64,000 nucleotides of DNA from Streptomyces sp. LHD-70 (GTDB lineage: Bacteria > Actinomycetota > Actinomycetes > Streptomycetales > Streptomycetaceae): contig NZ_JAVIFW010000012.1 in NCBI RefSeq assembly GCF_031157275.1, positions 62,001-126,000 on the forward strand, in the 5' to 3' direction. This document shows positions 10,516 to 30,532 of the stretch, in pieces; positions within the stretch are counted from its first letter, which is position 1, and each line of letters begins with the position of its first letter. The notes under the pieces were generated by a model. It was not told the DNA's origin. It saw nothing but the letters and a program-made list of their open reading frames with translations, and searched no databases. The position numbers and the translations under genes are program-made.

Positions 10516-12138
10516 TCAGCCGGCCAGCTGCTCGTACGCGGGCAGCGTCAGGAAGTCCGCGTAGTCGGCGTCGAGCGACACCGTCAGGAGCAGGTCGTGC
10601 GCCTGCTGCCAGTTGCCGGCCTGGAAGGCCTCGTCGCCGATCTCCTCGCGGATCTTGGCGAGTTCCTCGGCGGCGACCTTGCGGGTCAGCTCGGCGGTGG
10701 CGGTCTCACCGTTCTCGAAGACGACACCGGCGTTGATCCACTGCCAGATCTGCGAGCGGGAGATCTCGGCGGTGGCCGCGTCCTCCATCAGGTTGAAGAT
10801 CGCGACGGCGCCGAGGCCGCGCAGCCAGGCCTCGATGTAGCGGGTGCCGACCTGGACGGCGTTGCGCAGGCCGTCGTAGGTGGGCTTGGCGTCGAGCGAG
10901 TCGATCGCGATGAGGTCGGCCGCCTTGACGTCGACGTCCTCGCGCAGCCGGTCCTTCTGGTTCGGCTTGTCGCCGAGCACCGCGTCGAAGGAGGCCATGG
11001 CGATCGGCACCAGGTCGGGGTGGGCGACCCAGGAGCCGTCGAAGCCGTCGCCGGCCTCGCGGTCCTTGTCGTTCTTGACCTTCTCGAACGCGACCTTGTT
11101 GACCTCGGCGTCCCGGCGCGACGGGATGAACGCCGCCATGCCGCCGATCGCGTGCGCACCGCGCTTGTGGCAGGTGCGCACGAGCAGCTCGGTGTAGGCG
11201 CGCATGAACGGGGCGGTCATCGTCACCGCGTTGCGGTCCGGCAGGACGAACTTGGCGCCGCCGTCACGGAAGTTCTTGACGATGGAGAAGAGGTAGTCCC
11301 AGCGCCCGGCGTTGAGACCGCTCGCGTGGTCGCGCAGCTCGTAGAGGATCTCCTCCATCTCGTACGCGGCCGTGATCGTCTCGATCAGGACGGTGGCGCG
11401 GACGGTGCCCTGCGGGATGCCGACGTAGTCCTGGGCGAAGACGAAGATGTCGTTCCAGAGGCGGGCCTCCAGGTGCGACTCGGTCTTCGGCAGGTAGAAG
11501 TACGGGCCCTTGCCGAGCTCGATGAGGCGCTTGGCGTTGTGGAAGAAGTACAGGCCGAAGTCGACCAGCGCACCCGGGACGGCGCGGCCGTCGAACTTCA
11601 GGTGCCGCTCCTCCAGGTGCCAGCCGCGCGGGCGCATCACGACGGTGGCCAGCTCGTCGGTGTCCTTGAGGGCGTACGACTTGCCGGACTTCGGGTCGGT
11701 GAAGTCGATGTTCCGGGCGTAGGCGTCCTTCAGGTTGACCTGGCCGAGGACCACGTTCTCCCAGGTGGGGGCCGAGGCGTCCTCGAAGTCGGCGAGCCAG
11801 ACCTTGGCGCCCGAGTTGAGGGCGTTGATGGTCATCTTGCGGTCGGTGGGACCGGTGATCTCCACGCGGCGGTCGTTCAGGGCCGCGGGCGCGGGGGCCA
11901 CGCGCCAGGAGTCGTCCTCACGGATCCGAGCGGTCTCCGGGAGGAAGTCGAGCGTTGAAGTGCGGGCGATCTCGGCGCGGCGCTCGGCGCGGCGGGCGAG
12001 GAGCTCGTCACGCCGGGGCGTGAACAGCCGGTGCAGCTCCGCCACGAAGGCGAGGGCGGCGTCGGTGAGGACCTCTTCCTGCCGAGGCAGGGGCTCGGCG
12101 TCGACGATGGCCAGCGGGGACGGCGCTGGTGCGGACAT
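10516..12138 (-). CDS. aceB: Malate synthase A
   Basis: This 540-residue protein condenses glyoxylate with acetyl-CoA to malate in the cytosol. Length and motifs are those of the A form: [18 protein letters not shown] (~104-121), [20 protein letters not shown] (~230-250) and [14 protein letters not shown] (~338-351), close to the family signature. GGAAG precedes ATG 12138. Its promoter region carries an IclR-type dyad also found upstream of allantoinase, so it probably processes glyoxylate released by purine/allantoin breakdown rather than, or besides, that from the glyoxylate shunt. It is a single-gene unit with a terminator after it. No isocitrate lyase is present in the window. Confidence 0.97.
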
Positions 12139-12239: not shown

Positions 12240-12304
12240 GCGAAGGGGCATAACCGGCTTCTAGGCCGCCGGAGCGCGGGGCGCTTCTGACCAGTGGATA
12301 GTAG

Positions 12305-12337
12305 TTTCCTCATAGTGGAAGTTCAAGGTGTGTTGAT
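12305..12337. promoter_or_regulatory. Putative IclR (AllR-like) operator upstream of aceB
   Basis: TTTCC-TCATAGT-GGAAG (12305-12321) is a dyad with near-perfect 5-bp arms. It is followed by TTCAAGGTGTGTTGAT (12322-12337), a weaker TTCAA/TTGA pair. The same two elements occur between the IclR gene and allantoinase. It lies about 170-200 bp upstream of the aceB start. Confidence 0.6.
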
Positions 12338-12510: not shown

Positions 12511-13128
12511 TCACTTCAACCGCACCAGATCCGCCTCCGTGTCGATGTCGTACGCCTCGGCCACGTCCCCGCACTCGACGCGCGTGATCTCCGCCTCGTG
12601 CTCCCGCAGATAGGCGCGCGCCCCGCGGTCCCCGGTCGCCGCCGCCGCGATCCCCGCCCAGCGCTCGGCCCCGAACAGCACGGGATGCCCGCGCCTGCCG
12701 TCGTACGCGGCACACACCAGGCTCGACGGGGACGCGCAGGCCGCCACCACTCGGCGTACGGCCTCCGCGCCGATGCCCGGCTGGTCGACGAGCGAGACGA
12801 GCGCCGCCTGCGCCGCCCCCGCCGAGAGCGAGGCGAGCCCGGCCCGCAGCGACGAGCCCATGCCCTGCTCCCACTCCGGGTTCTCGACCAGGACGCAGCC
12901 GTCGAGCGCGGCCTCCTCCCGTACGCGATCGGCCGCCGCCCCGATGACCACGTGCACGTCGGCGCAGCCGCCCGTACGCAACACCCGCACCGCGTGCTCC
13001 ACCAGGGGGCGGCCCCGGTACGGCAGCAGCGCCTTCGGCCGGCCGCCGAGCCGGCGCCCGCCGCCCGCGGCGAGCAGCAGCCCCGCGATGCGCGGTGCCT
13101 TTACCGCAGCCGGCTCGCTTTCCCTCAT
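12511..13128 (-). CDS. MobA/MocA-like nucleotidyltransferase
   Basis: This 205-residue protein has the NTP-transferase signature at its N-terminus (GLLLAAGGGRRLGGRPKALL, residues ~16-35), followed by a Mg-binding LVDQPG motif (~109-114) and GHPVLFG (~146-152), all typical of molybdopterin cytidylyl/guanylyltransferase-like enzymes. Such proteins mature the molybdenum cofactor of xanthine dehydrogenase-type enzymes, which would fit the neighbouring purine/allantoin genes. That link is inference, since no XDH gene is present here. The start ATG 13128 follows a weak AGG-containing leader. Confidence 0.85.
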   Translation of the reverse strand: MRESEPAAVKAPRIAGLLLAAGGGRRLGGRPKALLPYRGRPLVEHAVRVLRTGGCADVHVVIGAAADRVREEAALDGCVLVENPEWEQGMGSSLRAGLASLSAGAAQAALVSLVDQPGIGAEAVRRVVAACASPSSLVCAAYDGRRGHPVLFGAERWAGIAAAATGDRGARAYLREHEAEITRVECGDVAEAYDIDTEADLVRLK

Positions 13129-19968: not shown

Positions 19969-20090
19969 ACGGACGGGTCCGGGTCGGCCGCACGCCCGCA
20001 CGCCCGCACGCCCGCACGGACGGGTCCGGGTCGGCCGCACGCCCGCACGCCCGCACGCCCGCACGGACGGGGTCCGGGGTCGGTCAGACG
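19969..20090. repeat. 47-bp tandem repeat with internal CGCACGCC units
   Basis: Units begin at 19969, 20016 and 20063 (each ACGGACGGG...). Within each, the octamer CGCACGCC recurs three times. The third copy diverges after 20085. It occupies most of the gap after the exporter genes. Confidence 0.9.
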
Positions 20091-20121
20091 CACGGATGGG
20101 CCAGGAGCCCGCCGGACCTAC

Positions 20122-20185: not shown

Positions 20186-20260
20186 TCCGTATCCCCGGAC
20201 TCCGTATCCCCGGACTCCGTATCCCCGGACTCCGTACCCCCGGACTCCGTACCCCCGAAC
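20186..20260. repeat. 15-bp tandem repeat TCCGTAYCCCCGGAC x5
   Basis: Five contiguous 15-bp units: three TCCGTATCCCCGGAC, then two TCCGTACCCCCGRAC. They end 10 bp before the IclR stop codon. With the 47-bp repeat they make the 349-bp gap 19922-20270 almost wholly repetitive. Confidence 0.92.
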
Positions 20261-21195: not shown

Positions 21196-21217
21196 AGCTT
21201 TCACTTCATGGAAAGCT
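21196..21217. promoter_or_regulatory. Putative AllR operator 1 between allR and allB
   Basis: AGCTTTC-N8-GAAAGCT is a perfect 7-bp-arm dyad. On the minus strand it reads TTTCC-ATGAAGT-GAAAG and lines up with TTTCC-TCATAGT-GGAAG upstream of aceB (shared TTTCC-N4-AGTGRAAG). Confidence 0.65.
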
Positions 21218-21301
21218 CTAGTCTGGGTAGAGAACCGGAACGAAGCCCTCCGGGTGTACCCAGGGGGTCTTGACTGGGCCAGACGGCCCGGTGAAGATTC
21301 G

Positions 21302-21318
21302 TTCAACAGATTGTTGAA
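21302..21318. promoter_or_regulatory. Putative operator 2 upstream of allantoinase
   Basis: TTCAACA-GAT-TGTTGAA is a perfect 17-bp palindrome about 60 bp upstream of the allB start, in an unusually AT-rich stretch, so it probably overlaps the promoter. Confidence 0.65.
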
Positions 21319-21376: not shown

Positions 21377-22714
21377 GTGTCCGACGTGGAACTGGTCCTT
21401 CGCTCGACGCGAGTCGTCACCCCCGAGGGCACGCGCGCCGCCTCCGTCGCCGTGGCCGACGGGAAGATCGCAGCCGTCCTTCCGTACGAGACCGAGGTCC
21501 CCGAAGGTGCCCGGCTCGAGGACTTCGGGGACGACGCGCTGCTCCCCGGCATCGTCGACACCCACGTCCACGTGAACGACCCCGGCCGCACCGAGTGGGA
21601 GGGCTTCTGGACCGCCACCCGCGCCGCGGCCGCCGGTGGCATCACCACCCTCGTGGACATGCCGCTCAACTCCCTGCCGCCCACCACCACCGTCGACAAC
21701 CTGCGCACCAAGCAGGAAGTGGCCCGCGCCAAGGCGCACATCGACATCGGTTTCTGGGGCGGCGCGCTCCCGGACAACGTCGCGGACCTCAAGCCCCTGC
21801 ACGACGCGGGCGTCTACGGCTTCAAGTGCTTCCTGTCGCCCTCCGGCGTCGACGAGTTCCCGCACCTCGACCGCGAGCAGCTCGCCGCGTCCATGGGCGA
21901 GATCGCGGGCTTCGGCGGCCTCCTCATCGTGCACGCCGAGGACCCGCACGAGCTGGACTCCGCCCCGCACCTGAGCGGCCCGAAGTACGGCGACTACCTG
22001 CAGACCCGGCCGCGTATCTCCGAGGACGCGGCGATCAAGGGCCTCATCGAGACCGCCAAGCGCCTCGACGCGCGCGTGCACGTCCTGCACCTGTCGTCCT
22101 CCGACGCGCTGCCGCTGATCGCCGCCGCCAAGGCCGAGGGCGTCAAGCTCACCGTCGAGACCTGCCCGCACTACCTCACCCTGACCGCCGAGGAAGTCCC
22201 GGACGGCGCCAGCGAGTTCAAGTGCTGCCCGCCCATCCGCGAGGGCGCCAACCAGGACCTCCTGTGGCAGGCGCTCGCCGACGGCACCGTCGACTGCATC
22301 GTCACCGACCACTCGCCGTCCACCGCCGACCTGAAGACCGACGACTTCGCCACCGCCTGGGGCGGCATCTCCGGCCTCCAGCTCAGCCTCCCGGCCATCT
22401 GGACCGCCGCCCGCGAGCGCGGTCACAGTCTCGACGACGTGGTGCGCTGGATGTCGGCGCGTACGTCGGAGCTGGTCGGCCTGGACCAGAAGGGCGCCAT
22501 CGAGGCCGGCCGCGACGCCGACTTCGCGGTCCTCGCGCCCGACGAGACCTTCACCGTCGACCCCGCCGGACTCCAGCACCGCAACAAGGTCACCGCCTAC
22601 GCGGGCAAGACCCTGCACGGCGTCGTGAAGTCCACCTGGCTGCGCGGCCAGCGCATCCACGCGGGCGGCGAATTCACCGTGCCCTCCGGCCGACTCCTCG
22701 AAAGGAAGAACTGA
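21377..22714 (+). CDS. allB: Allantoinase
   Basis: This 445-residue cyclic amidohydrolase opens the hydantoin ring of allantoin to allantoate in the cytosol. GTG 21377 follows GAGAGGGG and gives the usual N-terminus; the frame is open further upstream across the operators. Metal-site motifs are present: [10 protein letters not shown] (~58-67, first His pair), FKCFLSPSG with the lysine that is carboxylated in the family (~150), LIVHAED (~185), HVLHLSS (~240) and IVTDHSPST (~312). It is followed after 5 bp by allantoicase and divergent from the IclR regulator, making a compact allantoin operon. Confidence 0.97.
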
Positions 22715-29213: not shown

Positions 29214-30532
29214 TCAGTCCGTCGGAGCCCCCGGCCAGGTGAAGGTCGCGACGGCCCCGGCGGGCAGCTCGTACGCCAGGGAGCGACCGGACTCCGTGAC
29301 GGAGAACGTCCGGGGCGCGTCGGCCGCGTTCACGACGACGGAGAACGTCCGGGGCGCGTCGGCCGCGTTCACGACGACGGAGAACGTCCGGGGCGCGTCG
29401 GCCGCGTTCACGACGACGGAGACCCGCTCGCCGTCCGGGTTCTCGAACGTGACGTTCTGCAGTCCGCCAGGGCCCTGGCTCGTCGAGGCGATGCGGTGGG
29501 CGCCCCGGTCCATGAACTTCGAGACGTGCCCGAGCACGTAGAACTCCGCGTTCTTCTCGGCCTTGCCGCCCGCGACCTGCACGACCCCGTTGCAGCGCTC
29601 GCCGCACAGGCCGAAGTGCGGGCCGCCCTTGTCGTCCAGGGCCATGTTCCACAGCACGACGGTCTCCGCGCCGGAGCGCAGGCTGCGTACGACCAGGTTC
29701 TCCGTCTGCCACTTGAGGGTGTCCGCGAACGTACGCGACGGGTCCTCGCTGTCGGTGCCCGAGCACTCCGTGAAGAACACCCCCTCACCCGCGCCCCGCA
29801 CCTGCTGCTACGCCTCGGGCCGCCCGCCGTAGCAGTGGAACGCGGCGCCCTGCACGCGCGCGATGTCCTTGGTCCTGTTGAGGACGTCGAGCGGGTAGTC
29901 GGGCCGGTCCCAGTTGTGGTCGTACGCGAAGAGCTGCGTGTCCAGGCCCGCCGCGGTCAGCCTAGCCTCCAACACCCGGAAAAAATCGGCCTGTTGGGCG
30001 GGCGACATGCCCATCGAGGGGTACGAGGTCTCGAAGAGCGGCTCGTTCTGCACGGTCAGGTCGTCCACGGGGACGCCGGCCTTCGCGTACGCCTGGAGCG
30101 TCTTCACCAGGTAGTCGGCGTACGCCTCGTACATCTCCGGCTTGAGCCCGCCGCCCTCCAGCTTGCCGCTGTCCTTCATCCAGGCGGGCGCCGACCACGG
30201 GCTGCCCATGACCCGCACCTGGGGGTTGAGCTGCTTCGCGGTGCGGACGAGCGGCAGGATCTCCTGCTCATCGCGGCCGATGGAGAAGGAGCCCTGGGTG
30301 TCCTCGTACGAGTAGTACGTGTGCCGAGGGTGCGCATCAGCGTGATGTCGTCCCGCCACCGGTGGTAGTGGTCGCAGGTCGCGTCGCCGTGGTCGCCGCC
30401 GTCGATGGTGCCGGGGGTGTGCGCGAAGGTGTCCCAGACGAAGTCGGCGGGGAGTTGGTGCGGGGGCTGGTGCAGGAGCTGGTGCTGGGGCTTGTGCTGG
30501 GGGGCCACGAATTCCCTTTCCTCAATGGTCAC
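29214..30532 (-). pseudogene. Broken glycoside hydrolase: GH1 N-terminal piece joined to a GH30 glucosylceramidase-like body with an amber codon
   Basis: From GTG 30532 (overlapping the permease-remnant stop) the frame encodes a Gln/Pro/His-rich lead, then [20 protein letters not shown] and [18 protein letters not shown], the start of a GH1 beta-glucosidase. At about 30325-30335 homology switches, in another frame, to GH30: [60 protein letters not shown] (acid/base Glu) and FHCYGGRPEA. There the frame meets TAG (29808-29810) and continues in frame as QQVRGAGEGVFFTECSG, with the nucleophile Glu. The C-terminal beta domain contains a 13-residue motif repeated three times. A deletion fusing two neighbouring hydrolase genes, followed by a nonsense mutation, is the simplest reading. 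Confidence 0.85.
29301..29417. repeat. Perfect 39-bp triplication in the GH30 remnant
   Basis: Three identical 39-bp units at 29301-29339, 29340-29378 and 29379-29417 encode VVVNAADAPRTFS three times in frame. Confidence 0.97.

Follow-up and report, generated by a model that had tools for sequence, protein, structure and literature searches.

Two conserved dyads at the allB and aceB promoters of Streptomyces suggest overlapping AllR and HTH_22-associated regulons

The 64,000-nucleotide stretch of Streptomyces sp. LHD-70 analyzed here (the window; G000:C12:62001-126000, where G000 is the window's own 8.5-Mb genome) carries a gene for an IclR-family regulator, allR, divergent from the allantoinase gene allB, with the malate synthase gene aceB about 9 kb off. 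Two inverted repeats, hereafter E1 and E2, precede both allB and aceB, and a first-pass annotation had read them as a single IclR-type operator system joining allantoin catabolism to malate synthase. Do the two dyads serve one regulator or two? Comparison with related genomes suggests two regulons that share allB and aceB, with AllR acting on E1 and a second regulator, for which an HTH_22 protein and its Thiamine_BP-like partner are the best candidate, acting on E2; we consider this reading probable.

Two conserved dyads at allB and aceB

All four strings named by the first-pass annotation are present in the window: AGCTTTC-N8-GAAAGCT at 21196-21217 and TTCAACA-GAT-TGTTGAA at 21302-21318 on the allB side, and TTTCCTCATAGTGGAAG at 12305-12321 and TTCAAGGTGTGTTGAT at 12322-12337 (+ strand, aceB itself being on the - strand) on the aceB side. 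The span to which it had assigned them, 21196-21318, is right for allB, but the aceB strings fall outside it. E1 exists as it was described, but its better form is TTYCRY-N3-RYGRAA, a dyad of 15 bp that is repeated 21 bp away as E1' (Table 1). At aceB, E2 is a 17-bp element in most species (ATCAACAAACCATTGAA), like E2 at allB, and is 1 bp shorter in the window and in locus L009; judged by this comparison the window's aceB copy is degenerate, and its missing base explains why the two E2 strings first noted do not quite align. The string TTCAACANNNTGTTGAA has two perfect matches in the 8.5-Mb genome, one of which is the allB E2.

Table 1. Genes, putative promoters, and dyads at the allR-allB and aceB loci (window coordinates).
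Feature	Coordinates	Strand	Details
allR, IclR-family regulator, 268 aa	20271..21077	-	IclR_C 147 bits, HTH_IclR 63.1 bits
allB, allantoinase	21377..22714	+	TIGR03178 622 bits, cut-off 358
aceB, malate synthase A	10516..12138	-	TIGR01344 845 bits, cut-off 594.5
Putative allB promoter, TTGACT-N17-GAAGAT	21270..21298	+	read from sequence; TTGAC and GAAGA conserved in alignment
Putative aceB promoter, TTGAAC-N17-TACTAT	12298..12326	-	read from sequence; conserved across 62 rows
E1 of allR/allB operator, TTTCACTTCATGGAA	21199..21213		19-mer 21197-21215 scores 19.1, window's second best
E1' at allR/allB, TTCTGCGTAGCGAAA	21178..21192		exactly 21 bp from E1; score 8.1 at -21
E2 at allB, TTCAACAGATTGTTGAA	21302..21318		score 30.1, best E2 in window
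E1 at aceB, TTCCACTATGAGGAA (- strand)	12306..12320		score 28.7, best E1 in window
E1', weak copy at aceB, ATCCACTGGTCAGAA (- strand)	12285..12299		21 bp from E1; conserved columns; score 1.4
Degenerate E2 at aceB, ATCAACACACCTTGAA (- strand)	12322..12337		score 10.4

Both domains of AllR exceed their Pfam cut-offs, which places the protein in the IclR family. Against the NCBIfam models for BhcR, PcaR/PcaU, IclR, KdgR, and AllR, every match falls below the family cut-off; the E. coli AllR equivalog model (NF007548) gives 124 bits against a cut-off of 406, and Streptomyces AllR carries the name of E. coli AllR by role, not as an equivalog. Its closest named relative is AllR of Streptomyces sp. 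B-S-A12 (98% identical). An allantoicase gene lies 3' of allB in the same direction (TIGR02961, 420 bits, cut-off 278). At the putative aceB promoter the spacer is occupied by E1 and the -35 overlaps E2; the E2 of allB is placed directly downstream of the putative -10.

Other features of the window were recorded in passing. An NTP-transferase gene (12511-13128), near the NboR (nicotine blue oxidoreductase) and MocA-like families but under their cut-offs, lies upstream of aceB on the same strand; genome G163 has, by eye, something similar in the interval from allB to aceB. Short tandem repeats just 3' of allR (20000-20100 and 20186-20260) consist, by eye, of cgcacgcc and ccccggactccgtat units, and an ORF at 29214-29801 contains VVNAADAPRTFS in three in-frame copies.

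Symmetry alone proves little here, because dyads are no more numerous in the window than in resampled sequence: there are 118 perfect dyads with 7-bp arms against 101-151 in five Markov resamples, and 3 with at least 4 A/T per arm, two of them the present elements, against 0-3 in ten resamples. Such counts are what would be expected if the dyads were chance palindromes of a GC-rich genome, but conservation already refutes that explanation. We compared the allR-allB intergenic region in 80 sequences and the aceB upstream region in 62, from the window and the loci of its relatives (of 80 relative loci, the allB alignment holds 79 and the aceB alignment 61, each plus the window; in the rest the gene is missing or not aligned from its start). 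E1 and E2 are among the most conserved blocks of both alignments. At loose match thresholds, E1 is found in 80/80 allR-allB and 62/62 aceB regions and E2 in 80/80 and 58/62, and TTCAAC-N5-GTTGAA is exact in 65 of the 80 allR-allB regions. The majority forms are TTCCACTTTGTGGAA (E1) and TTCAACAGAACGTTGAA (E2) at allB, and TTCCACCATGAGGAA (E1) and ATCAACAAACCATTGAA (E2) at aceB. Scored with matrices trained on these allB and aceB promoters across species, the window's best E1 reaches 28.7 (maximum of 20 resamples, 17.3) and its best E2 30.1 (maximum, 13.1). A chance origin thus has a negligible probability, and E1 and E2 are, on this comparative evidence, real elements, established by conservation and not by symmetry. 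The claim of two distinct dyads at both promoters is therefore upheld, and extends across Streptomyces; that such an arrangement is unusual is not, since repressor promoters with two dyads are not in themselves unusual.

Different promoter sets for E1 and E2

The distribution of E1, usually a tandem pair of TTYCRY-N3-RYGRAA dyads 21 bp apart, suggests that it behaves as the AllR operator, and so fits the earlier assignment of the first element to an IclR-type protein. E1 sites occur at allR/allB, aceB, gcl, and hyi-glxR, and also before allR in other actinobacterial genera. We examined spacings of 15-31 in 29 allR upstream regions, 14 from Streptomyces and 15 from other genera. All 14 Streptomyces loci have a best pair with at most 4 mismatches at a spacing of 21; no other spacing achieves this in more than 4/14, or at most 5 mismatches in more than 11/14 (both maxima at spacing 22). 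Among the other genera, pairs with at most 5 mismatches occur at spacing 21 in 12/15 loci and at other spacings in at most 3/15. In Streptomyces with both AllR and HTH_22, a matrix derived from allB and aceB finds E1 with its 21-bp partner at hyi in 14/14 and at gcl in 12/13 promoters, and E1 at aceB in 14/14 and at allB in 13/13, the last two being training promoters of the matrix. In the gcl exception, G089, gcl is downstream of hyi-glxR. For this promoter comparison, the stretches read did not reach allB of G143, gcl of G182, or the catalase gene of several genomes.

Genome-wide in G000, a relaxed E1 pattern matches 21 places, against 3 for a reversed control. A 15-mer, TTCCGCAGGGCGGAA, or its complement recurs in that genome (contigs C1, C13, C14, and C24) and accounts for several of these places; it has an E1-like shape but is probably a different motif or a repeat, and because of it we judged E1 on promoters and tandem spacing instead. 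As a separate observation, a further E1-like dyad lies close to or abuts E2 at allB, upstream of allR, in four loci (L278:1189, L280:1194, L283:1277, and L288:1260), an arrangement that resembles the aceB layout and is not seen in the window's strain.

E2 (TTCAACA-N3-TGTTGAA), to judge by its neighbors, suggests a regulon other than that of E1, comprising uraD-uraH-uricase, catalase, allB, aceB, a cyclophilin-like gene, and, in two genomes, urease. E2 stands without E1 pairs at uraD in all 15 HTH_22-bearing Streptomyces and at catalase in 9/9 cases where that gene is within the stretch, and the matrix scan finds E2 at 0 of 27 gcl or hyi promoters in Streptomyces. A single E1-like site in 3 of the 9 catalase promoters (scores 13.5-16.6) speaks against a clean split. 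The first-pass annotation had proposed to look for both elements together upstream of gcl, hyi, and uricase: gcl and hyi have the E1 pairs (12/13 and 14/14) but lack E2, and the uraD-uricase operon has E2 (15/15) but lacks E1 pairs. A shared IclR operator at allB and aceB is accordingly retained for E1 and abandoned for E2.

The mere presence of E2 in a genome says little, since strict matches are not specific (15/16 genomes of the genus and 24/181 others, against 10/16 and 15/181 for a reversed pattern), and the argument is carried by place. In G000, TCAAC-N5-GTTGA has 10 matches, against 5 for the reversed control. Half of them are at allB, catalase, uraD, ureA (the urease gamma promoter, on C17), and the cyclophilin-like gene (C14); the other five, one of which is inside an ABC-transporter-like ORF, we count against the regulon. 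Allowing up to two mismatches, E2 is found at 21 places in this genome against 6 for the reversed control: two are perfect, four have one mismatch (catalase, uraD, ureA, and C3:85638), and fifteen have two. Nine strict sites traced in other genomes include one at urease (G039) and four at the cyclophilin-like gene (G057, G133, G173, and G143); the remaining four, beside unrelated or no evident genes, likewise count against it. The urease promoters covered are those found through the strict pattern (G000 and G039), and urease fits the regulon because allantoicase releases urea. The cyclophilin-like gene (PF04126) may belong to purine metabolism, since E2 is kept there in the four genomes named. 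In G000 (L103:1440-1760), its E2 is about 8 bp before the start codon; on the other side is TGTGAACGCGTTCACA, which we take to be like a Rex site, and then a gene resembling cydA.

A candidate E2 regulator beside uricase

The candidate regulator is a 125-aa protein encoded at G000:C12:45979-46353, outside the window, just upstream of uraD beside the uricase operon. It belongs to the HTH_22 family (PF13309, 70.8 bits, cut-off 29.6); its recognition-helix region, GVSRFTVYNYLN, is near invariant among 74 sequences and its N-terminus is more variable. A PDB sequence search with this protein returned nothing significant.

We surveyed 80 uricase upstream loci in 78 genomes from 16 genera of the family, taken from 134 family genomes found with uricase, at an E2 threshold of 17 fixed after the window scan. 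HTH_22 adjoins uricase in 72 of the 80 loci, and all 72 have E2. Six of the eight loci without an adjacent HTH_22 gene have no E2 (G204, G219, G300, G314, G223, and G255, the last four without a uraD next to uricase), and in G297 E2 is present with the HTH_22 gene 4 kb off. The second uricase copy of G246, which has E2 (score 23.6) without adjacent uraD or HTH_22, speaks against the association. Among 75 uraD-bearing loci, 73 have NTCAACANNNYGTTGAC 15-185 bp upstream of uraD, all with HTH_22; the two without E2, G204 and G219, are also without HTH_22 in the 120 kb seen. At uraD the right arm of E2 doubles as the -35, with a -10-like TTAGCT 17-19 bp on (spacers of 15-19 were allowed; this comparison left out 7 of the 80 loci, namely G300, G314, the second copy of G246, G223, G255, G204, and G219). 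In genera without HTH_22, E2 is missing from all 16 uricase loci read, which come from 61 uricase genomes of other genera with G048 left out. In G240 (L374:1817), G221 (L383:1625), and G315 (L360, reverse, 1473), the HTH_22 gene is preceded, at a distance of some hundreds of bp, by further E2-like dyads, perhaps reflecting autoregulation of the HTH_22 gene and its partner.

That partner is a Thiamine_BP-like gene, found just upstream of HTH_22 and on its strand in 73/73 HTH_22 loci (the 72 plus G048). In 54 loci its end runs 1-16 bp past the start of HTH_22; in 14 the two genes are separated by 2-32 bp and in 3 by 86-404 bp, and in 2 they are fused: G048, from another family (190 aa), and G292 (208 aa). 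The G000 partner is a member of PF01910 by a marginal score (25.9 bits, cut-off 24.9), and the G048 fusion matches both PF01910 (41.2 bits) and PF13309 (65.4 bits). Searched against PDB, the fused protein finds only weak matches, the best being 1lxn (MTH1187) at an insignificant E-value of 0.17. Because the partner accompanies HTH_22 in every locus and is fused to it twice, we propose that the two may form a split regulator, with a Thiamine_BP-like sensing subunit and an HTH_22 DNA-binding subunit. In G048, uricase directly follows the fusion gene and has E2 and a tandem E1 pair in its promoter; allB of the same genome is without E2, which speaks against our best explanation.

Natural losses, as read from the genomes, dissociate AllR and E1 from HTH_22 and E2. 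In G163, a whole-genome search finds no AllR at E<=1e-70, and 68 kb contain none of gcl, hyi, and glxR; E1 is gone (scores of 8.0 at allB and 2.0 at aceB) and E2 is retained at allB (32.4) and uraD (25.3). This genome keeps HTH_22, yet has lost E2 at aceB (2.0), a point against our best explanation. G204 is the converse case: AllR (77%), allB, and aceB are present, with an E1-like pair (3 mismatches) between allR and allB, and within 120 kb there is no HTH_22 gene and no E2 (best score 12.5). G219 has none of HTH_22, allB, aceB, an AllR ortholog, or E2 (best 14.6) in 120 kb. G153 keeps AllR (82%), and its E1-like pair has 3 mismatches; its E1 matrix scores are low (5.7 at allB and 8.8 at aceB) and only the looser pair pattern finds E1, a further point against our best explanation. 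Genome-wide, G153 has no HTH_22 except one match (E 9.5e-4) outside the HTH domain, and no canonical E2, with none at uraD or aceB. At its allB, however, is a symmetric variant, TTCGAC-N5-GTCGAA (score 19.9), without an HTH_22 gene, and this speaks against our best explanation because simple loss does not predict it. The variant, TTCGACGAAACGTCGAA at L265:8560-8576, has both arms changed alike. Loss of E2 at uraD is weak evidence, since the site adjoins the HTH_22 gene and joint loss is not independent; the losses at allB and aceB are the stronger evidence, resting on two genomes.

These losses bear on the earlier reading, in which AllR alone binds both dyads. Their half-sites are alike (TTCCAC and TTCAAC), they stand together at allB and aceB with AllR encoded beside them, and G153 keeps both AllR and an E2-like variant. 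Yet G163 retains E2 at allB and uraD without AllR, G204 keeps AllR without E2, gcl and hyi have E1 pairs only while uraD and catalase have E2 without them, and the half-site spacing differs (N3 in E1, N5 in E2). We therefore regard a single regulator as very improbable: both dyads are indeed shared by allB and aceB, as the first-pass annotation had it, but the losses separate E1 and AllR (G163) from E2 and HTH_22 (G204 and G153), against its claim of one operator.

A different possibility is that some third, unlinked regulator binds E2, and that HTH_22 and its partner merely travel with the uricase operon for another job. A shared pathway alone can link neighbors, binding of E2 by HTH_22 is a prediction, and the symmetric variant of G153 exists without HTH_22. 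On the other hand, in G204, without HTH_22 in 120 kb, E2 is gone from allB and aceB, which are far from uricase; E2 is again found beside HTH_22 in another family; and the 16 uricase loci of genera lacking HTH_22 are all without E2. On balance a third regulator seems rather unlikely, and HTH_22 with its partner is the candidate that we retain.

A two-regulator model and its relation to known systems

In the model that we favor, AllR would bind E1 as a tandem pair of 15-bp dyads spaced by 21 bp, or two turns of the helix. From these sites at allR/allB, aceB, gcl, and hyi-glxR it would repress the allantoin-to-glyoxylate genes as long as neither allantoate nor glyoxylate is present; the repression and the effectors are those reported for AllR of S. 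coelicolor, and the E1 sites come from our comparison. The second regulator would be the HTH_22 protein with the Thiamine_BP-like protein as its sensing subunit. Bound to E2, it would most likely repress the uricase operon, catalase, allB, aceB, and, in some strains, urease, keeping urate oxidation and peroxide removal off; binding by HTH_22, repression, and a purine breakdown product as the signal are all inferred. Carrying both E1 and E2, allB and aceB would require both signals.

Repression is suggested by the position of E2, which covers part of the -35 at uraD and aceB and falls in the start region at allB. The E2 protein could instead be an activator, with E2 overlapping the -35 in the manner of a class II activator site, an alternative that concerns only the sign of control and overlaps with our best explanation. 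E2 at uraD is centered near -40 with TTGAC as its right arm, as such a site might be, but this -35 is already the consensus TTGAC, and E2 downstream of the allB -10 and about 8 bp before the cyclophilin-like start codon occupies blocking rather than recruiting positions; activation is thus unlikely. We lean toward the fuller view that a split Thiamine_BP-fold/HTH_22 factor is the purine-catabolism regulator of Streptomycetaceae, acting through E2 and meeting AllR at allB and aceB, where the two would gate purine nitrogen and glyoxylate carbon by two inputs. For the Thiamine_BP-like partner, a ligand derived from purines is no more than a guess.

Purines in soil serve Streptomyces as sources of nitrogen and carbon, and AllR reportedly affects antibiotic production through hyi. 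A second regulator for the urate-to-allantoin half of the route, with allB and aceB in common with AllR, would account for joint switching of the two halves, together with catalase, which could clear the peroxide from uricase. The Thiamine_BP-like/HTH_22 pair and its fusions would also add a type of sensor to the HTH_22 regulators. No account of E2, its regulon, or its regulator was found in the literature searched, whose coverage mostly excludes subscription papers, and novelty is unproven.

The AllR half of the model is already known in outline. AllR of S. coelicolor reportedly represses the allantoin genes and hyi and responds to allantoate and glyoxylate. It too is an IclR-family gene divergent from allB, and the E1 distribution fits these reported targets; what the present analysis contributes is the tandem layout at 21 bp and the E2 regulon. 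PMC12772271 mentions the S. coelicolor homolog of AllR and lists Navone et al. 2015 (AEM 81:6649) among its references. Table 1 of PMC8222616 includes a group of A/T-rich dyads among the IclR-family operators. In this table, the GenR operator of C. glutamicum, ATTCC-N7(5)-GGAAT, has the half-site order and N7 gap of E1 (TTCC-N7-GGAA), whereas those of E. coli IclR (TGGAAATNATTTCCA) and AllR (KTTGGAAWAWTWTTCCAAC) have their half-sites in the opposite order. Streptomyces AllR also falls under the cut-offs of both E. coli NCBIfam models.

For the second regulator, two known groups offer partial likenesses. DauR/YheO-type regulators have an N-terminal PAS/YheO sensor domain and share the PF13309 HTH_22 domain with our candidate. 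Pfam finds no PAS/YheO domain in the G000 HTH_22 protein or the G048 fusion, which sets both apart from that subtype; in place of such a domain there is a separate Thiamine_BP-like gene, or, in G048 and G292, a fusion. MTH1187/YkoF-type thiamine-binding proteins are resembled by the PF01910 matches in G000 and G048, but the PF01910 protein described here is encoded beside uricase and is paired with, or fused to, a DNA-binding domain.
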